Source: Gemmatimonadota bacterium
Lineage (GTDB): Bacteria > Gemmatimonadota > Gemmatimonadetes > Gemmatimonadales > Gemmatimonadaceae
Reading direction: 5' to 3'
Length of the DNA stretch: 64,000 nucleotides
NCBI GenBank assembly: GCA_028287345.1
Contig: JAQBPV010000442.1
Location: 1-64,000 of the forward strand
This document shows, in pieces, positions 20,779 through 47,374 of this stretch. The position numbers and the translations under genes were made by a program. The notes under the pieces were generated by a model, which was given only the letters and a program-made list of their open reading frames with translations, had not been told where the DNA came from and did no database searches. Numbering within the stretch: the first letter of the stretch is position 1; each line of letters starts with the position of its first letter.

Positions 20779-22134
20779 TCAGGACTTGATGGCAAGGTTC
20801 GGATTCGTATTCAACTCGGTGCGACCGATCGGGAAGCAGGTGTCCTTCCCCTTCCGATCGTCCATTCGCAGCAGCGCCGGCAGACCGCCAGGCGTCGCCG
20901 GATCCTTGCCGGCGCCGTCCCAGCGACGACGCAGTCCAAGCGCGCGCCCTTCGAGATAGGTCTCGATCAGTGTCTCGAGCTTGAGATACGTCCAGGCGGA
21001 GTCGCTGGTGATCGCCGTGTTGCGGAGCGGCACACCAGCGTCGGTGCGGAGGTCGTTCACGAGTGCCATCGCACCGGCAATGTCGCCCGTCCGCAGCTTC
21101 GACTCCGCGACGATCATCTGCGCTTCGCGACCATCCGTCAGGTCGATCGGCGAGCCTTGCGCGGTGTACTTCTGCTGCTGGTAGAAGAGCACTTGCCCGA
21201 CCACGCCGCGGCCATCGCCAAGGTCACCGACGGACCCCTGCGTGAACTTCCATTGCGGGAAGGTCAGGTATTTCACTCGCGGATCCTTCGTCAGGTCGTA
21301 GTAGTCCGCATACCACGTGTGCCACACGGTCTCGTTGCGGAACGTGCTGCCGTCCATCGCGAAGAAGTACGAATTCAACTGTTCGCGATCGAGGTTGTTG
21401 TAGAGCGCCTGAAACTTGTACGCTTTCGGTGTGAGCGCGGCATCCGCTGCGGCGCCGGCCCAGTTGCCGAGCCACGTGCGCACGGACGCGCGTCCGCCGT
21501 ACGCAGCATTGGTGAACGCTGCGTTGTTCACCGCCTTCGCGATCGCGATTGCCTCGGTGAACGCCGCCTCGGCGCGGGTGAAGTGCACGCTCGCGGGCTG
21601 TCTGGGGCCGCCGTCGATGGTGGTCTCACACATGTTCTCGCCGAGCAACCGGTTGCTGAATCCGACGTAGAGCAGCCCCTGCGCCGCGATCGGCGACTTG
21701 GCAAAATCCGCCGCCGGCAGTGCGGCGCGGATGCGATCGACCGCGGCTTCGGCAACCCAACGCGCCGCTGACGCCTTCGACGTGCGATTGTCCGTTTCAT
21801 CAGCCGTGATGATGCCGACGGAGAGCTGCGGACTGATACCGAACGATCCTGTCTGTCCACCGGGGTGCAGCTCGCGCGCGACGGCTGACGCGTCGAACCC
21901 CAATGCGCCACCCGTGCCGGAGGCGAGCGAGTTGGCGATGGCGCGGCCCGCGCCATTCACCACCGCTTGATGCGCCGACGCGAGATCGAGGAATTGATCC
22001 TGCACTGGCCCCGGATTCTCGACGTCGAGATTGCAGGCCGTGGCGATCAACATGCTCACCGCGACGATCGCGAGCGTGTACCGGCGCGGATGCACGCGCG
22101 ACGCCGGCCGATCGAACTGTGTGGTGGTCGGCAT
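20779..22134 (-). CDS. SusD/RagB-like outer-membrane nutrient-binding lipoprotein
   Basis: This 451-residue lipoprotein has a basic N-terminus, a hydrophobic segment and a lipobox (LIATAC, Cys about 34). TPR-like helices follow, as in SusD/RagB proteins; the C-terminal part EGRALGLRRRWDG and the closing PIGRTELNTNPNL match the way these proteins usually end. SusD lids bind the substrate and close over the SusC transporter. One base separates it from the upstream SusC-type gene. With a carboxypeptidase rather than glycosidases next door, peptides or amino-acid conjugates are more likely cargo than glycans; RagAB is the described precedent for peptides. Confidence 0.87.
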   Translation of the reverse strand: MPTTTQFDRPASRVHPRRYTLAIVAVSMLIATACNLDVENPGPVQDQFLDLASAHQAVVNGAGRAIANSLASGTGGALGFDASAVARELHPGGQTGSFGISPQLSVGIITADETDNRTSKASAARWVAEAAVDRIRAALPAADFAKSPIAAQGLLYVGFSNRLLGENMCETTIDGGPRQPASVHFTRAEAAFTEAIAIAKAVNNAAFTNAAYGGRASVRTWLGNWAGAAADAALTPKAYKFQALYNNLDREQLNSYFFAMDGSTFRNETVWHTWYADYYDLTKDPRVKYLTFPQWKFTQGSVGDLGDGRGVVGQVLFYQQQKYTAQGSPIDLTDGREAQMIVAESKLRTGDIAGAMALVNDLRTDAGVPLRNTAITSDSAWTYLKLETLIETYLEGRALGLRRRWDGAGKDPATPGGLPALLRMDDRKGKDTCFPIGRTELNTNPNLAIKS

Positions 22135-22135
22135 C

Positions 22136-24991
22136 TTAGAAGTTCACCTTGAGCGAGGTGGTGAAAATCGCGGGAGCGGGATACTGCTCGTTCATGGAGC
22201 GCACCTTCGACAGCGCGCCATCGTTGGCCATCATCTCTGGATCGAACATCTTGAAGTCCTTGTTCAACCAGCGGATCCAGTTGCGGGCCGAGAAGGTGAT
22301 GGAGGCGTTGCCGGCACCTGGCACGATCGCGGACGGCAGACCCACGCGCAGGCTCATCTCGCGCACCTTGAAGAAATCGGTCGGATAGATCGTCGATCCC
22401 GACTTGAAGTTGCTGACGATGCAGAACTGTCGGTCGTAGGCCGTGAGCTGAGCGCCGCGTCCCGCGGCGATCTCCGCATTGGCGTAAATGCACGTCGGCC
22501 AGACGGTGATGCCGCGCGACTGTGCACCCTCGGAACCGCTGTCGAAGATGTAGCCGCCGTGCTGATACTCGCCGCGTGCCGTGAACTGAATGCCGTGCGG
22601 CAACTCGATCGACGTGCTGGGGTTGATCGTCAGCGTCGGCAGATTCGGTCCGAAGAGGTAGTTGTTCTCGGTAATCGGAGCCGCGATCTCGTCGGGGTTC
22701 TTGAGATGCGTGCCGACGATGACGGGGATCGGCTGACCTTCCATGATCCATCCCTGCCCGCCGAGCGAGAAGCTCGGCGCTCCGCCGAGGTTGACGGCCT
22801 TGTTCGCCGACTTCGCCACGTTCACGCCGACGTCCCACTTGAATCCGGCGCGCTCGAGCGGCGTGCCACGCACCGCGAGCTCGATGCCCGAGTTCTCGAT
22901 GGTGCCGACGTTGCGGAGCTGTGAATTCTGGAAGCCAAGCGACGGCGTCTGCTGCACGGGGAAGAGCGCGTCCTTCGTGAGCTGATGGTAGTGCGTGAAG
23001 TCCACACCGAATCGCCCATCGAACGCGGCGAAGTCGAAGCCCAGTTCCGTCTCGGCCGTCCGCTCCGGTCCGAGTACGGGGTTACCCACGTTGAGCGGGA
23101 GATACGCCGGCAGGTTTCCCCACCCAATGGGGTCCCAGGTGCGAACCGCGTCGAATGCGCCCGGTGCGCGTCCTGCCTGACCATAGGCACCGCGCAGCTT
23201 CAGCGTGCCGATGCTCTTCGGCCAGAACGGTTCATCGGAGACGACGTACGAGACACTCGCCTTCGGATATCGCTGTAGTCCGAAATCGCTGCCGAATGCG
23301 CTGTTGCCGTCCACGCGCAGACCAAGCGTGAGGAAGTAGCGCTCCTTCAGGTTGAACAACGCCTGCGCGAATAGACCTCCATTGATGACCTTCATCGCCG
23401 ACTCGAACGATTGGCGAATCGCGCCTGAGCTCAACGTCGGAGTGCTCGGTCCGGGAAACTGGTCGGCGAGACCATCGAGTGTGTGCTCGTCGACGGTCAC
23501 ACTCTGCGCGCCGCCAGAGAGGCTGAGGCGCAGGTCATGCGCCATCGGCATGTGCTCGATGTTGTACGTGCTCACGAGATCGAGGCTGAGAATCCGGCTG
23601 CGATTCATCACATCGCTCATGCGCCCGAGCGGCTGCGGCGGGAAGCCGAACGGCCTGATCGACCGGAGCTCGTTCTCCGTCATGTCGTAGCCGGCGGTGA
23701 AGCGGTTCGTCCAGTTGGCGGTGGGTGCGTAGAGAAACGTGAGGCCACTCGTGAAGCGATCGATCATGCTGCGGACGTCGAAGGTCAGCACCTGGCTGAT
23801 GATCGCCGGATCCGCCGAGCCGAAGAAGTTGTTGGCGCCGCGATAGACGTTGAGCGTCAGCCCGTGCGAGTTGTTGCCGGTCGGCGTCGTCTGCGTTGCG
23901 GAGTGCGTGAGGAAGTTGTTCCACTGGATCTGCATTCCCTTGAAGCCGGCGAATCCGAAATTGCCGCGCAGGGATTCGCGCTTCTCGTGATCGTTCGGGA
24001 GCACGCCCTTGTTGTCCTCGAGCAGCCCCGATACGAAGTAGCCGTCCTCGCGGCCGCCGCCACGCACGGACAGGTCATACTTCTGTCGCATGCCGTTCTT
24101 GAGCCACGGATCGAGGTACGCGTACTCCGCTGGCGCGGGCGCGAAGGGCTGCAGCTTCGCATAGCCGTGATCGGCATTCAGGCTCCAGCGCGGGCTCCCA
24201 GCGGCGCCGCGCTTGGTGAAGATCTGAATCACTCCGGCATTCGCCTCGGTGCCGTACAATGTCGTCGCGGCCGCACCCTTGATGATCTCGATGCGATCGA
24301 TGTCCGACGGGTTGATGTCGTTGAGAGGACTCTGGACGTCGTTGTTGCTGCGATTCGAGCTCTCGCCGCCGGAGACGTTCTTCGAGTACGGATCGCTGCG
24401 CGTTCGCACGCCATCGATGTACACCAACGGCTGGTTGCTCATCGCCACGCTGACATTGCCGCGCAGGCGAATCTGCGCCGCGGAGCCCGGCTGTCCCGAG
24501 CTCGACATCACGGTCATGCCAGGTGCCTGCGCTTGCAGCATCGCGTCGACACTCGATGGATTGTCGATCGCCTTGGACATATCGATCTGCGAGATGCTGT
24601 TGCCGACTTCGCGCAGTCGTGCTGCGCCGGCGGTGCCCGTGACGACGACGGCATCCAGCGCCGCCACCGCTTCCTTCAAGTCGAAGTTGAGATCGACGGT
24701 CTGACCATTCACCACGAAGACGGGACTCGTCATCGCTTGATAGCCGATGCGTTGCGCGCGGATCTGCCGGCTGCCCGCGGGAACGCGGAAGATCTTGTAG
24801 CGGCCATCGGCGTCGGTCGTCGTGCCGAGTGTGGTGCCGACGACGACAAGTTGTGCTGATGGAACGGGACCACCCGCTCTCGTAACGCGCCCCTGCACCG
24901 TTCCCAGCTCCTGCTGCGCACCGACGTCGCCAAAGGGTGCGAGCAGTGAGAGCGTGAACAGTACTCGAGCTGCCGCGTGTGACGACGACAT
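22136..24991 (-). CDS. SusC/RagA-type TonB-dependent outer-membrane transporter
   Basis: This 951-residue protein has a signal peptide ending about GDVGAQ. A carboxypeptidase-regulatory-like domain (about residues 30-115, with TDADGRYKIFRVPAGSRQI) comes next, then a TonB plug domain. The plug includes the SusC signature QPLVYIDGVR and DIDRIEIIKGAAATTLYGTE. The remaining 650 residues form the beta-barrel, ending in the aromatic SLKVNF needed for outer-membrane assembly. It is the first structural gene after the ECF sigma factor and is followed by its SusD partner. It imports a bulky nutrient using TonB energy. The cargo is inferred from neighbours to be a peptide or an organic-acid conjugate. 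Confidence 0.92.
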   Translation of the reverse strand: MSSSHAAARVLFTLSLLAPFGDVGAQQELGTVQGRVTRAGGPVPSAQLVVVGTTLGTTTDADGRYKIFRVPAGSRQIRAQRIGYQAMTSPVFVVNGQTVDLNFDLKEAVAALDAVVVTGTAGAARLREVGNSISQIDMSKAIDNPSSVDAMLQAQAPGMTVMSSSGQPGSAAQIRLRGNVSVAMSNQPLVYIDGVRTRSDPYSKNVSGGESSNRSNNDVQSPLNDINPSDIDRIEIIKGAAATTLYGTEANAGVIQIFTKRGAAGSPRWSLNADHGYAKLQPFAPAPAEYAYLDPWLKNGMRQKYDLSVRGGGREDGYFVSGLLEDNKGVLPNDHEKRESLRGNFGFAGFKGMQIQWNNFLTHSATQTTPTGNNSHGLTLNVYRGANNFFGSADPAIISQVLTFDVRSMIDRFTSGLTFLYAPTANWTNRFTAGYDMTENELRSIRPFGFPPQPLGRMSDVMNRSRILSLDLVSTYNIEHMPMAHDLRLSLSGGAQSVTVDEHTLDGLADQFPGPSTPTLSSGAIRQSFESAMKVINGGLFAQALFNLKERYFLTLGLRVDGNSAFGSDFGLQRYPKASVSYVVSDEPFWPKSIGTLKLRGAYGQAGRAPGAFDAVRTWDPIGWGNLPAYLPLNVGNPVLGPERTAETELGFDFAAFDGRFGVDFTHYHQLTKDALFPVQQTPSLGFQNSQLRNVGTIENSGIELAVRGTPLERAGFKWDVGVNVAKSANKAVNLGGAPSFSLGGQGWIMEGQPIPVIVGTHLKNPDEIAAPITENNYLFGPNLPTLTINPSTSIELPHGIQFTARGEYQHGGYIFDSGSEGAQSRGITVWPTCIYANAEIAAGRGAQLTAYDRQFCIVSNFKSGSTIYPTDFFKVREMSLRVGLPSAIVPGAGNASITFSARNWIRWLNKDFKMFDPEMMANDGALSKVRSMNEQYPAPAIFTTSLKVNF

Positions 24992-40023: not shown

Positions 40024-40629
40024 ATGGGCGTGAACATCGAACCTGCGCGACCGGCTTCCGGACACGACGACTTGCCGCCCCTCCTCAAGCATGCGTGCGC
40101 CGGGGACGAGGTTGCGGTGGAGCGCTTGCTCGTTCGCTTCCGCGATCGGATCCACCAGTGGGCCGCCCGCTACACGCACGACGCGGACGAGGCGGACGAC
40201 GTCGCGCAGGAGGTGATGGTCGGCCTGCCTGATCGCGTGAAGCGGTTCGACCAGCGCCGCCCGTTCGCGGCGTGGCTGTACGTCCTCACCCGACGCGTCG
40301 CGCGCTCGACGCAACGGACGGCATCGCGGCGCAGGGACCTGCTCGCGTCGTTCGTCCCTGATGTCGACGAGGCCACCGACAGCCACGGTTCGACGGAGAA
40401 TGCCGAGACCCTGAGCGCGCTCGTCCTGGGTTATTTCGACGCGCTGCCGCCGAGGCAGCGACAGGTGTTCGAGATGGTGGAGCTACGCGGCACACCGCAC
40501 GCCGTTGTGGCGCGCGAGCTCGGCATGCAGGAGTCCACTGTTCGCGCGCACCTGTTCAAGGCGCGCGCAAGCATCCGGACCAAGTTGCTGGAACATCACG
40601 AAGCGTTGGTACGGGAGTACCTCTCATGA
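40024..40629 (+). CDS. ECF sigma factor with adjacent anti-sigma
   Basis: This 201-residue sigma-70 family protein has ECF region 2 (DEADDVAQEVMVGL, then AAWLYVLTRRVARS) and region 4 (LPPRQRQVFEMVELRG, AVVARELGMQESTVRAHLFK). The final codons overlap the next gene, a zinc-finger anti-sigma, by 4 bases (ATGA), the normal arrangement for partner-controlled ECF factors. It would direct RNA polymerase to envelope or oxidative-stress promoters when released. The ATG at 40024 lies just after the GAGCTC-rich palindrome. Confidence 0.92.
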   Translation: MGVNIEPARPASGHDDLPPLLKHACAGDEVAVERLLVRFRDRIHQWAARYTHDADEADDVAQEVMVGLPDRVKRFDQRRPFAAWLYVLTRRVARSTQRTASRRRDLLASFVPDVDEATDSHGSTENAETLSALVLGYFDALPPRQRQVFEMVELRGTPHAVVARELGMQESTVRAHLFKARASIRTKLLEHHEALVREYLS

Positions 40630-41045
40630 ACTGCACCGAGGCACGATCCGCCATGCTGGAATGCGAGCTCGCCGACCTGGCGCCGCAGGCGACCGGCAGG
40701 CTCGCACGCCACATCGGGCGATGCAGCGATTGTCGCGCGCGCGCCGACGCGATCGTCGCGCGCACTGGGACGCTGCGAACGGCGCTCGCCGCACGAGGCC
40801 GACCCGGAGCGGAGCGAGTCTTCCGGCGTGGTCGCGCGATCGGCGCGTTATCGATTGCGGCGGGACTCGTCGTGGTCGTCGCCCTCGCGCGTCGCGCACC
40901 ACATGCTCCAATCGCGCCGATACCTCAGGCGTTACAGCAACTCAGCCCGGTCACCATCGAGAACGCGCAGGGACGCGCGGTCACGGTCGTGGAGCGGCGG
41001 GACACCATCGACGTCGTCTTTCACATTCGGGAGCCCAATGAATAG
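40626..41045 (+). CDS. Membrane anti-sigma factor with zinc-finger (ZAS-like) domain
   Basis: This 139-residue protein has the anti-sigma zinc pattern HIGRCSDC (about residues 29-36) preceded by a conserved cysteine (MNCTEA). One membrane segment (about 73-91, ALSIAAGLVVVVALA) and a short periplasmic tail follow. It should hold the upstream ECF sigma factor at the membrane until a signal changes the redox or proteolytic state. It overlaps the sigma gene by 4 bases and the following secreted protein by 8 bases, so the three are one operon. The periplasmic part is too short to contain a known sensor domain. Confidence 0.85.
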   Translation: MNCTEARSAMLECELADLAPQATGRLARHIGRCSDCRARADAIVARTGTLRTALAARGRPGAERVFRRGRAIGALSIAAGLVVVVALARRAPHAPIAPIPQALQQLSPVTIENAQGRAVTVVERRDTIDVVFHIREPNE

Positions 41046-41691
41046 AATCGTGTTGTGCGCGACGCTCCTCTGCAGCGCGGTCTCCCTCCCCGTCGCCGCC
41101 CAGGGGCCGGCGGCCGGCGTGCGCTTCCATCTCCGGCTCATCTCGGCCGATACGGGCGTCGCGGCCGTCGCGGCGCTCGATCGGGAGGCGCAGCTGAAAC
41201 AGGACGAGATCGAGCGTCGTGCGCGGGCGCTCTCCGGCATACGAGCAGGTGCGAAGATGCCGGCAGTCTCGGCCCCGAACGCGCTCATTGGGAAGCCCTC
41301 CATGGTGTACGTGAAGTGCGTGCGCCCCGACTCCGGAAAATGGAAGCGCGAGTCACCCGGGTGCGGGCCGCAGGTGAACGACTCGACATACAAGTTGCTT
41401 GCGGAGTCGACCGTGACCTCCGACGCCCAGGGGCATCTGAGCGAGCGCCTGATCTGGGCCGGCGGCGACGCGGTCGTGGAGCTCGATGCGTCGGAGCGGT
41501 CGGGGGTGGGTTCGACCGAGCGCATGCGGTTGAAGATCGGCTTCTGGCCGCGGCTGGCCAAGGGTGCGGCGGCGCCGCAGGAGACCGCACTGCGCATGAC
41601 GAACGCCGCCGCCATCTTCGGTAAGTCGGTTATGATGACCGTGCTGTTCAAGGACGGCGCTCAGATACTGCTCGTGGTACCGGAGCGATGA
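41038..41691 (+). CDS. Secreted protein of unknown function in the ECF/anti-sigma operon
   Basis: This 217-residue protein has a signal peptide ending at PVAAQ and a mature beta-rich domain. I do not recognise the family. A CVRP...GCGP pair of cysteines (about residues 92-108) could form a disulfide. The N-terminal mature part has a charged helix (about 45-65, LDREAQLKQDEIERRARAL). The ATG at 41038 overlaps the anti-sigma stop by 8 bases. Its co-translation with a sigma/anti-sigma pair suggests that it is a periplasmic modulator or sensor of that pathway; this is inferred from context only. The longer frame starting at 40828 is spurious. Confidence 0.75.
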   Translation: MNRIVLCATLLCSAVSLPVAAQGPAAGVRFHLRLISADTGVAAVAALDREAQLKQDEIERRARALSGIRAGAKMPAVSAPNALIGKPSMVYVKCVRPDSGKWKRESPGCGPQVNDSTYKLLAESTVTSDAQGHLSERLIWAGGDAVVELDASERSGVGSTERMRLKIGFWPRLAKGAAAPQETALRMTNAAAIFGKSVMMTVLFKDGAQILLVVPER

Positions 41692-41979: not shown

Positions 41980-43365
41980 TTACCTCTTGGTCCAGATGAC
42001 GATCACGCCACAACCACGGTTCGCGCCTGGCGGACCACCAGCCAGATCGTTGTAGACCTCCATCGCGCCGATGTCGTACGGATGAATGATGCTGAGATCC
42101 TGATTCTGCATGTTGTCGATCACGATGTTCGGCGCGCAGTTGCGCCCGGCACCACCGCCTCTCGTGCTCACGACTCTCGAATCGAATCCCGATCCAACGA
42201 CGCGAAAGCCCGGCATCATGCGAAACAGTTCGGCAGTCTCGGACGCGTGACGCTGGGTAATCTGCTCCTCGGTGAAATACCGGCCGACCGACGAGCGCTT
42301 GTGCTGCTCGAACTCCCGATACCTGCTGCGCTGCGCGATGACACGAACGGAGTCGAGTGACACTATGCGGTCGACCGACAGCTGGATGTCGACCGTACGT
42401 CCACTGCGCAGCGCGACCGGCATTCGACCGATGAAGTACCCGATGCGAAGAGCCTCGACCAGCTGGCTACCCGCGGGCAGTCCACTGAGCCTGAAGTGGC
42501 CGAGTGAATCGGTGCGCGCCGTGCCCGCGGCGTCCTCTACGCGAATCGTGACGTCGGCGAGCGGCAGGCCGGTGGAGTTGCGCACCGTTCCCGTGAGGAC
42601 GGCGGTTCCAGTGAGCGGAGGCGGCTCAGTGGTGTCGGCACTGACCAACGCGCGTGACGCGACCGCACTGAAGGTAAGGTCGAGTCGCCTGAAGCCAACG
42701 CTGTCGGAGACTTCGGTACGAAGCACGCTGCCCGCGCGTCCGCCCGCCTGCACCTGCAGCAGCAGATAGCTGCCCGTGGGAACGCCGCACAATCGATAGA
42801 TGCCCGCGGAGTCCACGCGCACGCTTCCTGATCGTGCAGCGGTCATCGTTTGCAGCGTCGTTCGATCGATGGTGATGTCGTTCCACGTCACCGCGACCGA
42901 TGCGCCGATGAGTGGCCGGTCGGTGTCCGCGTCAGTTACCGTCCCAACGACTGCGCCAGTATTCGCGGCAAGCAGCAGCCCTGGACAGGCGGCACGGCGC
43001 AAGGTGGCGCCGGATGGAATGCCGAGATCGACGCGCGCTCTCTCTCCGGCCGTAAGCACGACTTCGCGCGCTGCGACGGGCACGTCGAGCGAGTCGAGCG
43101 TCGGATGGGTGAACAACACGGAGTAGCGTCCGGCAGTGAGACTGTCGAGGTGATAGCGACCATCCTTGTCGGAGACGACCGTCCGCATGAACTCCGGCTG
43201 TGCGGGTTCGATGCGAGTGATGTAGATGATGGCGTCGGACAGCGGCTTGTAATGCGTGCTGTCGGTCAACACGCCGTCGATGCGCGCGGGCTGTTGGGCG
43301 ACGGCTCGCTCTGCAGCGAGTGCGAGCGTCATGATCACAAGAGCGGCGACGATGCGGTTCGTCAT
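41980..43365 (-). CDS. Carboxypeptidase-regulatory-like protein with TonB plug domain but no barrel
   Basis: This 461-residue exported protein has a signal peptide (about residues 1-23, ending AVAQ). It has three regulatory-like beta-sandwich repeats, about 28-100 (SDKDGRYHLDSLTAGRYSV), 125-215 (GIYRLCGVPTGSYLL) and 245-315 (DSLGHFRLSGLPAGSQLV). It ends in a TonB plug-like region (about 340-461) with ETAELFRMMPGFRVVGSG and the DIGAMEVYN segment. The transmembrane barrel expected after a plug is missing, and the protein stops at a VIWTKR end. The ATG at 43365 was chosen; the upstream frame to 43539 runs through the neighbour's promoter. It may be a periplasmic adaptor or a decayed receptor. 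Confidence 0.8.
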   Translation of the reverse strand: MTNRIVAALVIMTLALAAERAVAQQPARIDGVLTDSTHYKPLSDAIIYITRIEPAQPEFMRTVVSDKDGRYHLDSLTAGRYSVLFTHPTLDSLDVPVAAREVVLTAGERARVDLGIPSGATLRRAACPGLLLAANTGAVVGTVTDADTDRPLIGASVAVTWNDITIDRTTLQTMTAARSGSVRVDSAGIYRLCGVPTGSYLLLQVQAGGRAGSVLRTEVSDSVGFRRLDLTFSAVASRALVSADTTEPPPLTGTAVLTGTVRNSTGLPLADVTIRVEDAAGTARTDSLGHFRLSGLPAGSQLVEALRIGYFIGRMPVALRSGRTVDIQLSVDRIVSLDSVRVIAQRSRYREFEQHKRSSVGRYFTEEQITQRHASETAELFRMMPGFRVVGSGFDSRVVSTRGGGAGRNCAPNIVIDNMQNQDLSIIHPYDIGAMEVYNDLAGGPPGANRGCGVIVIWTKR

Positions 43366-43502: not shown

Positions 43503-44255
43503 ATGCGACGCATCGTGCTGCAGGTTCTCGGACTCGCACTACTCTCCCAGCCGCTCGCGGCGCAGACCGCCGACGACGTCATCGCCCGCTACATCAAGAC
43601 CATCGGCGGGATGGAAACCATCCAGGCGGCGAAGTCGCTGCGACGGACAGGCAAGTTCATCGGAGGCGGCGGCTTCGAGGCCAAGGTCGTCCAGGAGAAC
43701 AAGCGACCAAACCTCGTGCGCGAGGAGTTCTCACTTCAGGGCATGACGGCCATCAACGCCTACGACGGCAGGGCGGGATGGAAGATCGATCCCTTCGGCG
43801 GCAAGAAGGATCCCGAATCGCTGAGCGAGGACGAGATGCATGGCATCCTCCTCGACGCCGACTTCGACGAGCCGCTCATCAACTACCGGGAGAAGGGAAA
43901 CAAGGTCGAATTGGTGGGCACCGAACAGATCGAGGGCACCGACGTCTACAAGCTGAAAGTGTCGCTGCCCAACGGCGACGTGCGCCATTACTACATGGAC
44001 ACCGACTCCTACGTGCCGATCAAGATGGAGGAGAAGCGACTGATCCGCGGCAGCGAGCAGGAGTTCGAGACGACGCTCGGCGATTACAAGGCGGTGAATG
44101 GCTGGTTCATGCCTTTCTCCATCGAGAGTGGACCGAAGGGACAGGACAAGAGCACGGTGACGTACGAGAAGATCGAAGCCAACGTGCCGCTCGATGATCG
44201 GCGCTTCAGCAAACCCATCGTGGCTACGAAGCCCGCGTCACCGGAGAGGAACTGA
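43503..44255 (+). CDS. LolA-like outer-membrane lipoprotein-sorting family protein
   Basis: This 250-residue exported protein has a signal peptide (MRRIVLQVLGLALLSQPLAAQ). The beta-rich mature part resembles the LolA/LolB-like fold, with AYDGRAGWKIDPFGG and YYMDTDSYVPIKME as typical strands. In the wider family such proteins carry or bind lipids or lipoproteins across the periplasm. Two bases separate it from the following BNR propeller gene, so they are likely translated together. A role in delivering or supporting the propeller protein is inferred. It is divergent from the barrel-less plug gene across 137 bases. Confidence 0.8.
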   Translation: MRRIVLQVLGLALLSQPLAAQTADDVIARYIKTIGGMETIQAAKSLRRTGKFIGGGGFEAKVVQENKRPNLVREEFSLQGMTAINAYDGRAGWKIDPFGGKKDPESLSEDEMHGILLDADFDEPLINYREKGNKVELVGTEQIEGTDVYKLKVSLPNGDVRHYYMDTDSYVPIKMEEKRLIRGSEQEFETTLGDYKAVNGWFMPFSIESGPKGQDKSTVTYEKIEANVPLDDRRFSKPIVATKPASPERN

Positions 44256-44257
44256 CC

Positions 44258-47200
44258 ATGCGCGCACGCTCTTACGTTGTGCTCTTGACGTTGGTGCTGT
44301 TCGCAGGTCGACTAGCCGCACAACAGTCAACTGTGAAGGTCGACTCCGAGACGATCTCCGGACTCGGCGCGCGCAACATCGGCTCGGCGGCGATGAGCGG
44401 CCGCATCGCCGCAGTCGACGCTGTCCATGAAGGAAACCGTCTCACCGTATACCTCGGCTCCGCGAGCGGCGGCGTATGGAAGTCGGTGAACGGCGGCACG
44501 ACCTACAAGCCGATCTTCGACAAGCAGGATGTACAGTCGATCGGCGCGGTGACGATCGACCCGACGAATCCGCGAACGATCTGGGTCGGCACCGGCGAAG
44601 CGTGGACACGCAACAGCGTCTCCATCGGCGACGGCGTGTACAAGTCCACCGACGGCGGCGACAACTGGACCAACCTCGGACTCCGCGAGTCCGAGCGCAT
44701 CGCGAAGATTCTCGTCGATCCATCAGCGCCCAACACGGTTTACGTCTGCGTCCCGGGAAAGCTCTGGAGCGACAGCGACGAGCGTGGCGTCTACAAGACG
44801 ACCGACGGCGGAAAGAGTTGGAACAAGGTGCTCAGGGGCGCGAACGCATCCACCGGATGCTCGATGATGTCGATGGATCCGAAAGATCCCAAGACCATCT
44901 ACGCCGGCATGTGGGATTTCCGCCGAAAGGGGTGGACCTTCCGCTCCGGCGGTGACGGTCCGGAGGCGCCGAGTGCCAGTGGGCTGCTCAAGAGCACGGA
45001 TGGCGGCGCGACGTGGTCTGACCTCACTGCGACGAGCGCGCAGGGATTGCCGACAAAGCCGTGGGGACGCGTCGCCGTGGCAGTCGCGCCATCGAACCCG
45101 AACGTCGTCTACGCATTCATCGAAGCGGTGCCGCCAAAGAACGCGCTCTATCGCTCGGACGACGGCGGCAAGACGTGGCAGATGCGCGATCGCAGCCAGA
45201 ATATGATCTGGCGACCGTTCTATTTCGCCAACCTCATCGTCGATCCGAAGGACGAGAACCGCGTCTTCAAGCCCGACGGTCCGCTGATCCTCAGCACTGA
45301 CGGAGGGCAGAGCTTCAGCAACATCTCCGGCGGCGCACATGGGGACTTTCACGACGTGTGGATCGATCCGAAGAGCACCGATCGTCTCATCACCGGCGAC
45401 GACGGCGGCGTGTGGTACTCGTACGACGGCGGCAACAAGTGGTGGAAGGGAGAGAACCTGCCGGTATCGCAGTTCTACCACGTGAGCGTCGACATGGATC
45501 GACCGTATCGCGTCTACGGCGGACTCCAGGACAACAGCAGCTGGGTCGGCGAGTCAGCGTACCCAGGCGGCATCACCAACAGTCGGTGGGAGAACATGTA
45601 CGGCGGCGACGGCTTCTGGATGTTCGCTGATCCGGTCGATCCCGACTACGTGTACGCCGAGGCGCAAGGCGGAGAGATCGGTCGCATCAATCGCAAGACG
45701 CACGAGTCGCGACCCATCAAGCCCCTGCCGCTCTACCAGGAAAAGAAGCTCCGCTTCAACTGGAATACGCCGATTCACCTGAGCACCGTGAACAAGGGCA
45801 CGCTGTACATCGGCGCGGAGTTTCTCTTCCGCTCGCGCGACTTCGGGGAGTCGTGGGACCGCGTGTCGCCCGACCTCACGACGAACGATCCGGCGAAGCA
45901 GAAGCAGGAGGAGTCCGGCGGCGTGACCATCGACAACTCCGCGGCAGAGATGCACACGTCGATCTACACCATCTCGGAGTCGCCGAGGAACGCGAGGATC
46001 ATCTGGGTCGGCACGGACGACGGCAACGTCCAGCTGACGCGCGATGCCGGAAAGACATGGACGAACATGGTGGCGAACATTCGCGGCCTGCCGAAGAACG
46101 CGTGGGTCTCGTCGATCGAAGCGGGGCGACACGAGGACGGCGTGGTGTACGCGACCTTCGACCTGCACACCTTCGGCGACATGCGGCCGTATGCGTATCG
46201 GTCGGCGGATTTCGGCAAGACGTGGACGCCGCTGGTGGCAGCGAACAGTCCCGTGCGCGGCTACGCCCACGTCGTGAAGGAAGATCTCGTCAACCCGGAT
46301 CTCCTCTTTCTCGGCACGGAGTTCGGACTGTGGATCTCCGTGGACCGCGGTGCGAACTGGTCACGCTTCAAGGGTGGCGATCTTCCGAATGTCGCCGTTC
46401 GCGACCTCGCGATTCATCCGCGCGACAACGACCTCGTGATCGCCACACACGGCCGAGGGATTTGGATCGTGGACGACATCACGCCGCTTCGCGCGCTCAC
46501 GCCGCAGGCGCTCGCGAGCGACGTGATGTTCGCGAAGGTGCGGCCGACCATCGCGAGGGCCTCCGCCGGTGGTGGATGGGTCAATGGCGACGCGTCATTC
46601 GTCGGCCCCAACCCGCCCGATGACGCGATGATCACCTACTACCTGAAGAAGCGGCACATCTTCGGCGACATGAAGCTCGAGGTGCTCGACTCGGCAGGTC
46701 ACATCGTCGGTACGCTGCCGAGCAGCAAGCGGCGTGGCTTGAGCCGAGTCGCCTGGTCGATGCGGTTGAAGGCGCCAACCGTGCCCGCTGCTGCGTCGGC
46801 GGCTGGAGGAGCGTCGGTTGGGCCACGCGTGTTGCCGGGCAACTACACCGTGCGCATGACGAAGGACAACAAGGTGTTCACGACGGCATTGCAGGTGCTT
46901 CCCGATCCGCGGTCAAAGCATTCCGCGGCAGACCGGCGGGCACAGTTCGACCTCTCGATGAAGCTGTCGGGAATGCTCGGCGAGATGGCGGCCGCCGTGG
47001 ATCGCATGAACGACATCCGCTTCGCCCTCGAGGATCGTACAGGCAAGCTCTCGACGGGAGACACGCTCGCGCCGCGCCTGACACGCGCATCGTCAGACGT
47101 GGACGAGATGCGCAAGAAGATCGTGGCGACCAAGGAGGGCGGCATGATCACCGGCGAGGAGCGCTTGCGCGAGAATCTTGCCGACCTGTATGGCAACGTG

Positions 47201-47374
47201 ATCTTCTACGACGGTCGTCCATCGCGAGCGGAGTTCACGCGCACGGGTGCGATCGGCCGAGAGTTGACGGACATCTCGCGCACGTTCGACCAGTGGATCA
47301 ATCGCGAGCTGGGAGGAATCAATTCGGCGCTCAAGACGAGACAGCTCGACCCGATCCCCGTGCTGGTGCCGTAG
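44258..47374 (+). CDS. Secreted BNR/sortilin (VPS10)-like beta-propeller protein, second copy
   Basis: This 1038-residue protein has a signal peptide ending LAAQ. Many Asp-box units follow (KSTDGGDNW, KTTDGGKSW, RSDDGGKTW, TRDAGKTW), and the C-terminal tail is helical (about residues 880-1038). It is similar in length and plan to the protein at 9260-12460, and the two are presumably paralogues. No clear catalytic set is visible. The ATG follows GAGAGG eight bases away and lies two bases after the LolA-like gene. Such proteins are abundant in Gemmatimonadota and may bind peptides or glycans at the surface. Confidence 0.87.
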   Translation: MRARSYVVLLTLVLFAGRLAAQQSTVKVDSETISGLGARNIGSAAMSGRIAAVDAVHEGNRLTVYLGSASGGVWKSVNGGTTYKPIFDKQDVQSIGAVTIDPTNPRTIWVGTGEAWTRNSVSIGDGVYKSTDGGDNWTNLGLRESERIAKILVDPSAPNTVYVCVPGKLWSDSDERGVYKTTDGGKSWNKVLRGANASTGCSMMSMDPKDPKTIYAGMWDFRRKGWTFRSGGDGPEAPSASGLLKSTDGGATWSDLTATSAQGLPTKPWGRVAVAVAPSNPNVVYAFIEAVPPKNALYRSDDGGKTWQMRDRSQNMIWRPFYFANLIVDPKDENRVFKPDGPLILSTDGGQSFSNISGGAHGDFHDVWIDPKSTDRLITGDDGGVWYSYDGGNKWWKGENLPVSQFYHVSVDMDRPYRVYGGLQDNSSWVGESAYPGGITNSRWENMYGGDGFWMFADPVDPDYVYAEAQGGEIGRINRKTHESRPIKPLPLYQEKKLRFNWNTPIHLSTVNKGTLYIGAEFLFRSRDFGESWDRVSPDLTTNDPAKQKQEESGGVTIDNSAAEMHTSIYTISESPRNARIIWVGTDDGNVQLTRDAGKTWTNMVANIRGLPKNAWVSSIEAGRHEDGVVYATFDLHTFGDMRPYAYRSADFGKTWTPLVAANSPVRGYAHVVKEDLVNPDLLFLGTEFGLWISVDRGANWSRFKGGDLPNVAVRDLAIHPRDNDLVIATHGRGIWIVDDITPLRALTPQALASDVMFAKVRPTIARASAGGGWVNGDASFVGPNPPDDAMITYYLKKRHIFGDMKLEVLDSAGHIVGTLPSSKRRGLSRVAWSMRLKAPTVPAAASAAGGASVGPRVLPGNYTVRMTKDNKVFTTALQVLPDPRSKHSAADRRAQFDLSMKLSGMLGEMAAAVDRMNDIRFALEDRTGKLSTGDTLAPRLTRASSDVDEMRKKIVATKEGGMITGEERLRENLADLYGNVIFYDGRPSRAEFTRTGAIGRELTDISRTFDQWINRELGGINSALKTRQLDPIPVLVP

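Follow-up and report, generated by a model that had tools for sequence, protein, structure and literature searches.

A large family of barrel-less plug proteins with a conserved cysteine pair in Gemmatimonadota, and a possible role in docking TonB

TonB-dependent transporters of the SusC type carry a 22-stranded outer-membrane barrel C-terminal to the plug, and a plug is usually regarded as one component of a pore. The Ton box of SusC proteins lies between a transthyretin-like (TTR-like) N-terminal extension (NTE) and the plug; in Bt1763 it reads VDEVVV and is flexible in solution (PMC7782687). The pull of TonB unfolds half of the BtuB plug (PMC5413942). Here we describe a gene of a Gemmatimonadota bacterium (GenBank assembly GCA_028287345.1, a draft of 543 contigs) whose product follows the order of the periplasm-facing part of such a receptor and stops at the end of the plug. 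The window, by which we mean the whole stretch of DNA that was analyzed, comprises positions 1 to 64,000 of contig JAQBPV010000442.1.

Table 1. Features of the barrel-less plug gene and its product (positions are those of the window; AF2, AlphaFold2)
Feature	Coordinates	Strand	Basis
Whole gene, barrel-less plug protein of 461 aa (signal peptide, three Reg domains, Ton-box-like strand, plug)	41980..43365	-	Open frame, Pfam, family profile
Residues 1-23, probable type I signal peptide lacking a lipobox	43297..43365	-	Read by eye; AF2 helix 2-22
Reg domain 1 (transthyretin-like), about residues 27-105	43051..43287	-	Pfam PF13620; SpaA/SdrD_B-like matches too
Reg domain 2, about residues 136-235	42661..42960	-	Pfam PF13620; AF2 strands
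Reg domain 3, about residues 255-332	42370..42603	-	PF13620/PF13715 at 257-342; place equivalent to SusC NTE
Ton-box-like segment, L337-D-S-V-R-V342	42340..42357	-	Place and pattern as Bt1763 Ton box; conservation; AF2
Plug domain, residues 348-461, up to protein end	41983..42324	-	PF07715; hhalign 98.1%; AF2
Cys127, invariant	42985..42987	-	C in 23/23 full-length homologues
Cys193, invariant	42787..42789	-	C in 23/23 full-length homologues
Cys410, just before the plug strand bearing the VDG motif in receptors	42136..42138	-	Aligned pair in family
Cys452, just before the last plug strand (CGVIVIWTK)	42010..42012	-	Aligned pair in family

An earlier note on this DNA had described a long, intact frame with a normal signal peptide, in which three regulatory-like repeats are followed by a plug-like domain and then by a stop. 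The frame runs uninterrupted for 461 codons on the minus strand, from ATG at 43365 to TAA at 41980, exactly where that note had placed it, and the order of domains is upheld by Pfam: CarboxypepD_reg (PF13620) matches over three stretches at 101.6 bits (cut-off, 32.3), and Plug (PF07715) matches residues 364 to 443 at 31.1 bits (cut-off, 23.9). The N terminus, MTNRIVAALVIMTLALAAERAVA-Q, has the look of a type I signal peptide and shows no lipobox, and this part of the description, judged by eye, stands as probable. A Pfam scan found no TonB_C domain (PF03544) in the protein. The best NCBIfam model was that of SusC/RagA (TIGR04056), which covered residues 257 to 461 at 46.7 bits against a full-length cut-off of 368, a shortfall that is expected if the barrel is missing.

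At the level of sequence profiles, the homology of the C-terminal domain to plugs was confirmed independently of Pfam. The window protein matches a family profile with an E value of 7.3e-39, although it is itself one of the 15 rows of that profile and the 15 founder sequences match their own profile by construction. Against the PDB, the profile matches the plugs of the colicin I receptor and BtuB (E about 1e-4), and in a profile-profile comparison (hhalign) against the plugs of 18 receptors from this genome it reached the last plug strand with a probability of 98.1% and an E value of 1.3e-13. AlphaFold2 models built with family alignments had a mean pLDDT of 92.3 for the third Reg domain plus plug and of 88.1 for the complete chain. 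The predicted last plug strand spans residues 454 to 459, and the chain ends some two to three residues later, at 461. Foldseek matched the two-domain model to the NTE of the SusC protein BT3090 (PDB 9hfj). Fold searches with both models returned only Reg-domain and pilin-like matches and none for the plug fold, because the Reg domains dominate the score.

The barrel model PF00593 was run on the whole draft genome in six frames, with stop codons read through. It gave 46 matches, only one of which lay in the window, in another gene (22808-23923), and no barrel was found near the plug gene in any frame. The earlier note had argued that a free plug cannot by itself be a transporter and that a barrel-encoding frame restored downstream would overturn its reading; the first point holds, with no barrel in or near the gene, and no such frame emerged nearby. 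The window protein lacks the barrel that defines a TonB-dependent transporter and is not to be filed as one, and TonB-energized transport of a substrate is implausible without a barrel. Nearly all of the 46 barrel matches share their frame with a plug match. A barrel frame with no plug match occurs on contig C209, and contig C194 carries a barrel fragment at its edge. Elsewhere in the same genome, an ordinary receptor on contig C345 (8653-10755; L017) is broken into two frames, one of 274 aa with the plug and one of 500 aa with the barrel, through either a natural frameshift or an assembly error, and a plug-only frame of 182 aa with a lipobox-like N terminus (L026, contig C399) is a second, separate kind of barrel-less plug. 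The window itself holds, at 20782-24991, a 951-aa receptor frame with plug and barrel matches, and the adjoining 438-aa protein may, by its position, be a SusD-type partner.

Used as a query, the window protein revealed many similarly built paralogues within its own genome, which contains at least 15 free plugs of this family. An alignment of 15 plug regions has five invariant columns (Cys, Glu, Pro, Cys, and Trp). Among 31 near relatives, the profile derived from it detected members in 25; in a sample of 298 genomes from over the phylum it did so in 238, with up to at least 13 copies per genome; per-genome copy numbers are lower bounds, as 13 candidates at most were scored in each genome. Applied to the phylum of a Bacteroidales record, the same profile matched in 2 of 198 genomes. 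Almost all of the different members taken from fetched loci (91 of 94) terminate no more than 19 aa past the plug match, so that the relatives of this gene are not full-length receptors, the other outcome that the earlier note had named as refuting its reading; the three longer members are two TonB_C fusions and one broken frame. The same architecture and the same kind of ending were found on a complete plasmid of Gemmatirosa kalamazoonensis, another member of the Gemmatimonadota, in 484 codons from stop to stop. A mobile origin was considered and rejected: no phage match to the plug protein was found, and the only near-full-length plasmid match is that 1.1-Mb Gemmatirosa replicon.

A quick maximum-likelihood tree without bootstrap was computed from 68 plugs, comprising 48 family and fusion rows and 20 others (18 receptors, the split receptor, and the plug-only L026). 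A single branch with an SH-aLRT of 99 parts the 48 rows from the 20 on the receptor side, where the split receptor and L026 fall, the latter grouping with SusC receptors; these two look like separate losses, and the 68-plug tree gave no sign of repeated barrel loss inside the family. As judged from these plug sequences, the family to which the window protein belongs is large and of one lineage. Variants of the theme were also encountered. Tandem arrays of two to four members occur in relatives (L093 to L097 and L111), and three longer proteins (L037, L039, and L058) carry between their Reg domains an extra domain of about 250 aa to which Pfam has no match; the same cysteine-bearing plug terminates two of them, and L058 stops before the plug. 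A peptide-pattern scan of the genome contigs turned up an ordinary receptor of the SusC type and an unrelated protein with a Reg domain.

The four residues listed in Table 1 are all the cysteines of the window protein, and they are invariant across homologues of 28 to 50% identity. In 87 of 94 members the equivalents of Cys410 and Cys452 align strictly, and the plug contains two or four cysteines in every member bar two fragments; the best 30 ordinary plug matches of the same genome have none in the plug region, and neither has the plug of L026. Because of this co-conservation we infer a disulfide between Cys410 and Cys452, and Cys127 and Cys193 probably form another. The Tyr-Gly motif that is invariant in receptors before the last strand has been lost in the family, where P..Y/F....CG is found instead.

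The segment LDSVRV occupies the position of the Ton box in SusC proteins, after the third Reg domain and before the plug. In the whole-protein model, pLDDT falls below 50 at residues 338 to 346, and the two-domain model assigns neither strand nor helix to the stretch that separates the last Reg strand, which ends at residue 330, from the first plug helix, which starts at residue 350. Among 83 homologues, position 337 is occupied by a hydrophobic residue in 99%, position 340 in 95%, and position 342 in 92%. The retention of an alternating hydrophobic pattern in a predicted flexible linker, as for a strand-addition motif, is suggestive; three hydrophobic positions make a weak motif.

Matches to the family profile were crossed with TonB_C matches in the same 31 genomes, and plug and TonB_C were found in one open frame, with the plug first, in six cases (L146 to L151, at G010:C2, G013:C9, G015:C7, G012:C14, G014:C33, and G002:C361). 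TonB_C exceeded the Pfam cut-off in all six, and Plug and CarboxypepD_reg did so in five; in the sixth, L151, the latter two fell below the cut-off, and the family profile matched with an E value of 1.6e-27. A fusion profile matched 70 places in 59 of the 298 genomes, in 19 genera, with nearly all matches spanning both domains; the genomes that bear fusions all belong to the family-level group of the window, and the fusion-profile search found none in the window's own genome. TonB_C domains are also present in other envelope proteins, so that a fusion need not mean receptor binding. A further link comes from one type of paralogue (C438), which in five genomes is followed by lgt, the gene for prolipoprotein diacylglyceryl transferase, and a DinB-like gene (L106, L098, L100, L101, and L102); it overlaps lgt in several of the five, and tonB lies 2.4 to 6.5 kb away in at least three. 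The window's own genome has eight PF03544 matches, and on its contig C255 another family member is convergent with a TonB_C gene. The conserved Ton-box-like segment, the fusions, and the paralogue clustered with tonB lend indirect support to the previous suggestion of a decoy or adaptor for TonB, and it is from these that we infer that TonB may be bound.

No recognized TonB-system gene lies beside the plug gene or its closest relatives in the loci compared. No conserved gene partner emerged: the neighbors differ, and the closest relatives belong to tandem arrays with different flanking genes. On the side convergent with the plug gene, the window encodes at 40024-41688 an ECF sigma factor, a possible anti-sigma factor (by position), and a small secreted protein with no Pfam match; divergent from it, at 43503-47374, are a secreted protein that resembles LolA at a score short of the Pfam cut-off and a sortilin/BNR-repeat protein of 1,038 aa.

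We suggest, tentatively and with a confidence just short of even, that the product is soluble, resides in the envelope, most likely in the periplasm, and is a probably disulfide-stapled mimic of the periplasmic face of a SusC receptor that docks TonB; TonB docking in some form is in itself almost evenly balanced. The suggestion draws on the domain order, the end at the plug, the single lineage, the cysteine pair, the Ton-box-like motif in a segment predicted to be disordered, and the TonB_C fusions, all of them features read from sequence. Such a protein would reproduce the TTR-like extension, Ton box, and plug with which a SusC-type receptor faces the periplasm, minus the pore. After export to the periplasm and oxidation, a staple between the plug cysteines would tie the last strand and the VDG strand together, and the plug would thereby be stable without a barrel. 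Strand addition would pair the Ton box with the TonB C-terminal domain, and the protein would serve as a docking adaptor for TonB or would compete with the cell's many receptors; it may restrain TonB, pass it on, or tether some other component to it. In members of the fusion subfamily, a receptor-like side (plug and Ton box) and a TonB-like side (TonB_C) would be joined on one chain, as a relay or a self-inhibited pair. A bolder extension, which we consider less likely than not, is that free stapled plugs throughout the phylum bind TonB via the Ton box and share it out or restrain it among dozens of receptors, with the fusions as soluble relays; this would be a regulatory layer absent from the literature searched.

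Alternatively, a secreted protein may have co-opted the plug fold as a stable module, held by disulfide bonds, for ligand binding or as a scaffold; the TTR-like domains would then be spacer arms and the link to TonB historical only. This explanation has a real but minority share of the probability. The replacement of the receptor Tyr-Gly motif is in keeping with such a module, as is the resemblance in fold of chains of TTR-like domains to pilin and adhesin shafts, and the many paralogues, tandem arrays, and varied N-terminal arms fit a diversification of binding. By analogy with BtuB, a stapled plug may resist the unfolding that TonB drives, and, given that the BtuB plug unfolds under force, it could represent a fold recruited for an unrelated role. 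Recruitment of this kind is at odds, however, with the retention of the Ton-box-like segment despite its predicted disorder and with the fusion of TonB_C in 59 of the 298 genomes.

We think it very improbable that the free plug is one half of a split transporter and fills a barrel encoded elsewhere. The plugless barrel frame on C209, besides the contig-edge fragment on C194 and the split gene on C345, offers some material for such an arrangement, but there is no set of barrel-only genes to match at least 15 free plugs, nearly all barrels having a plug of their own, and a plug with a cysteine pair and without the Tyr-Gly motif would be ill suited to filling a barrel. Decay of a receptor, or an assembly or frameshift error, is scarcely credible even in a 543-contig draft that contains one true split receptor, since 91 of 94 members stop at the same point, as does the protein on the complete plasmid, no barrel lies nearby in any frame, the four cysteines persist at 28 to 50% identity, and the tree shows one lineage; the earlier doubt about simple decay was well placed, and the option of a decayed receptor, which had been left standing beside it, is rejected on the same evidence.

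The Plug, Reg, and TonB_C domains are known. In the open literature searched, with subscription papers and preprints largely outside the search, we found no description of a barrel-less, cysteine-paired plug family of this kind, and likewise no paper on plug-TonB_C fusions. A plug lineage persists here without a pore across a phylum, and counts of PF07715 matches overstate the number of receptors in these bacteria. With a natural soluble plug that bears a probable docking strand and a probable staple, the question of how TonB picks among receptors becomes directly testable.

Four systems come closest to the window protein. L026 is likewise a plug without a barrel but has a lipobox-like N terminus, no Reg domain that we could see, no cysteine in the plug, and a place on the receptor side of the tree. 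Proteins with a TonB C-terminal domain (PF03544) are approached by the one subfamily in which TonB_C follows the plug directly; the inspected fusions, however, seem to begin with a signal peptide and then a Reg domain, which is not the usual TonB layout. With the plugs of BtuB and the colicin I receptor Cir (PF07715), homology is detectable by sequence over the plug core, whereas the window plug is free-standing, probably stapled, and outside any pore. The order of TTR-like NTE, Ton box, and plug in the SusC/RagA transporters (TIGR04056; Bt1763) is paralleled in the window protein by an NTE-like Reg domain, a Ton-box-like segment, and a plug; the window protein differs from them in having no barrel and three Reg domains rather than one, and its family differs in carrying a cysteine pair in the plug and in lacking Tyr-Gly before the last strand.
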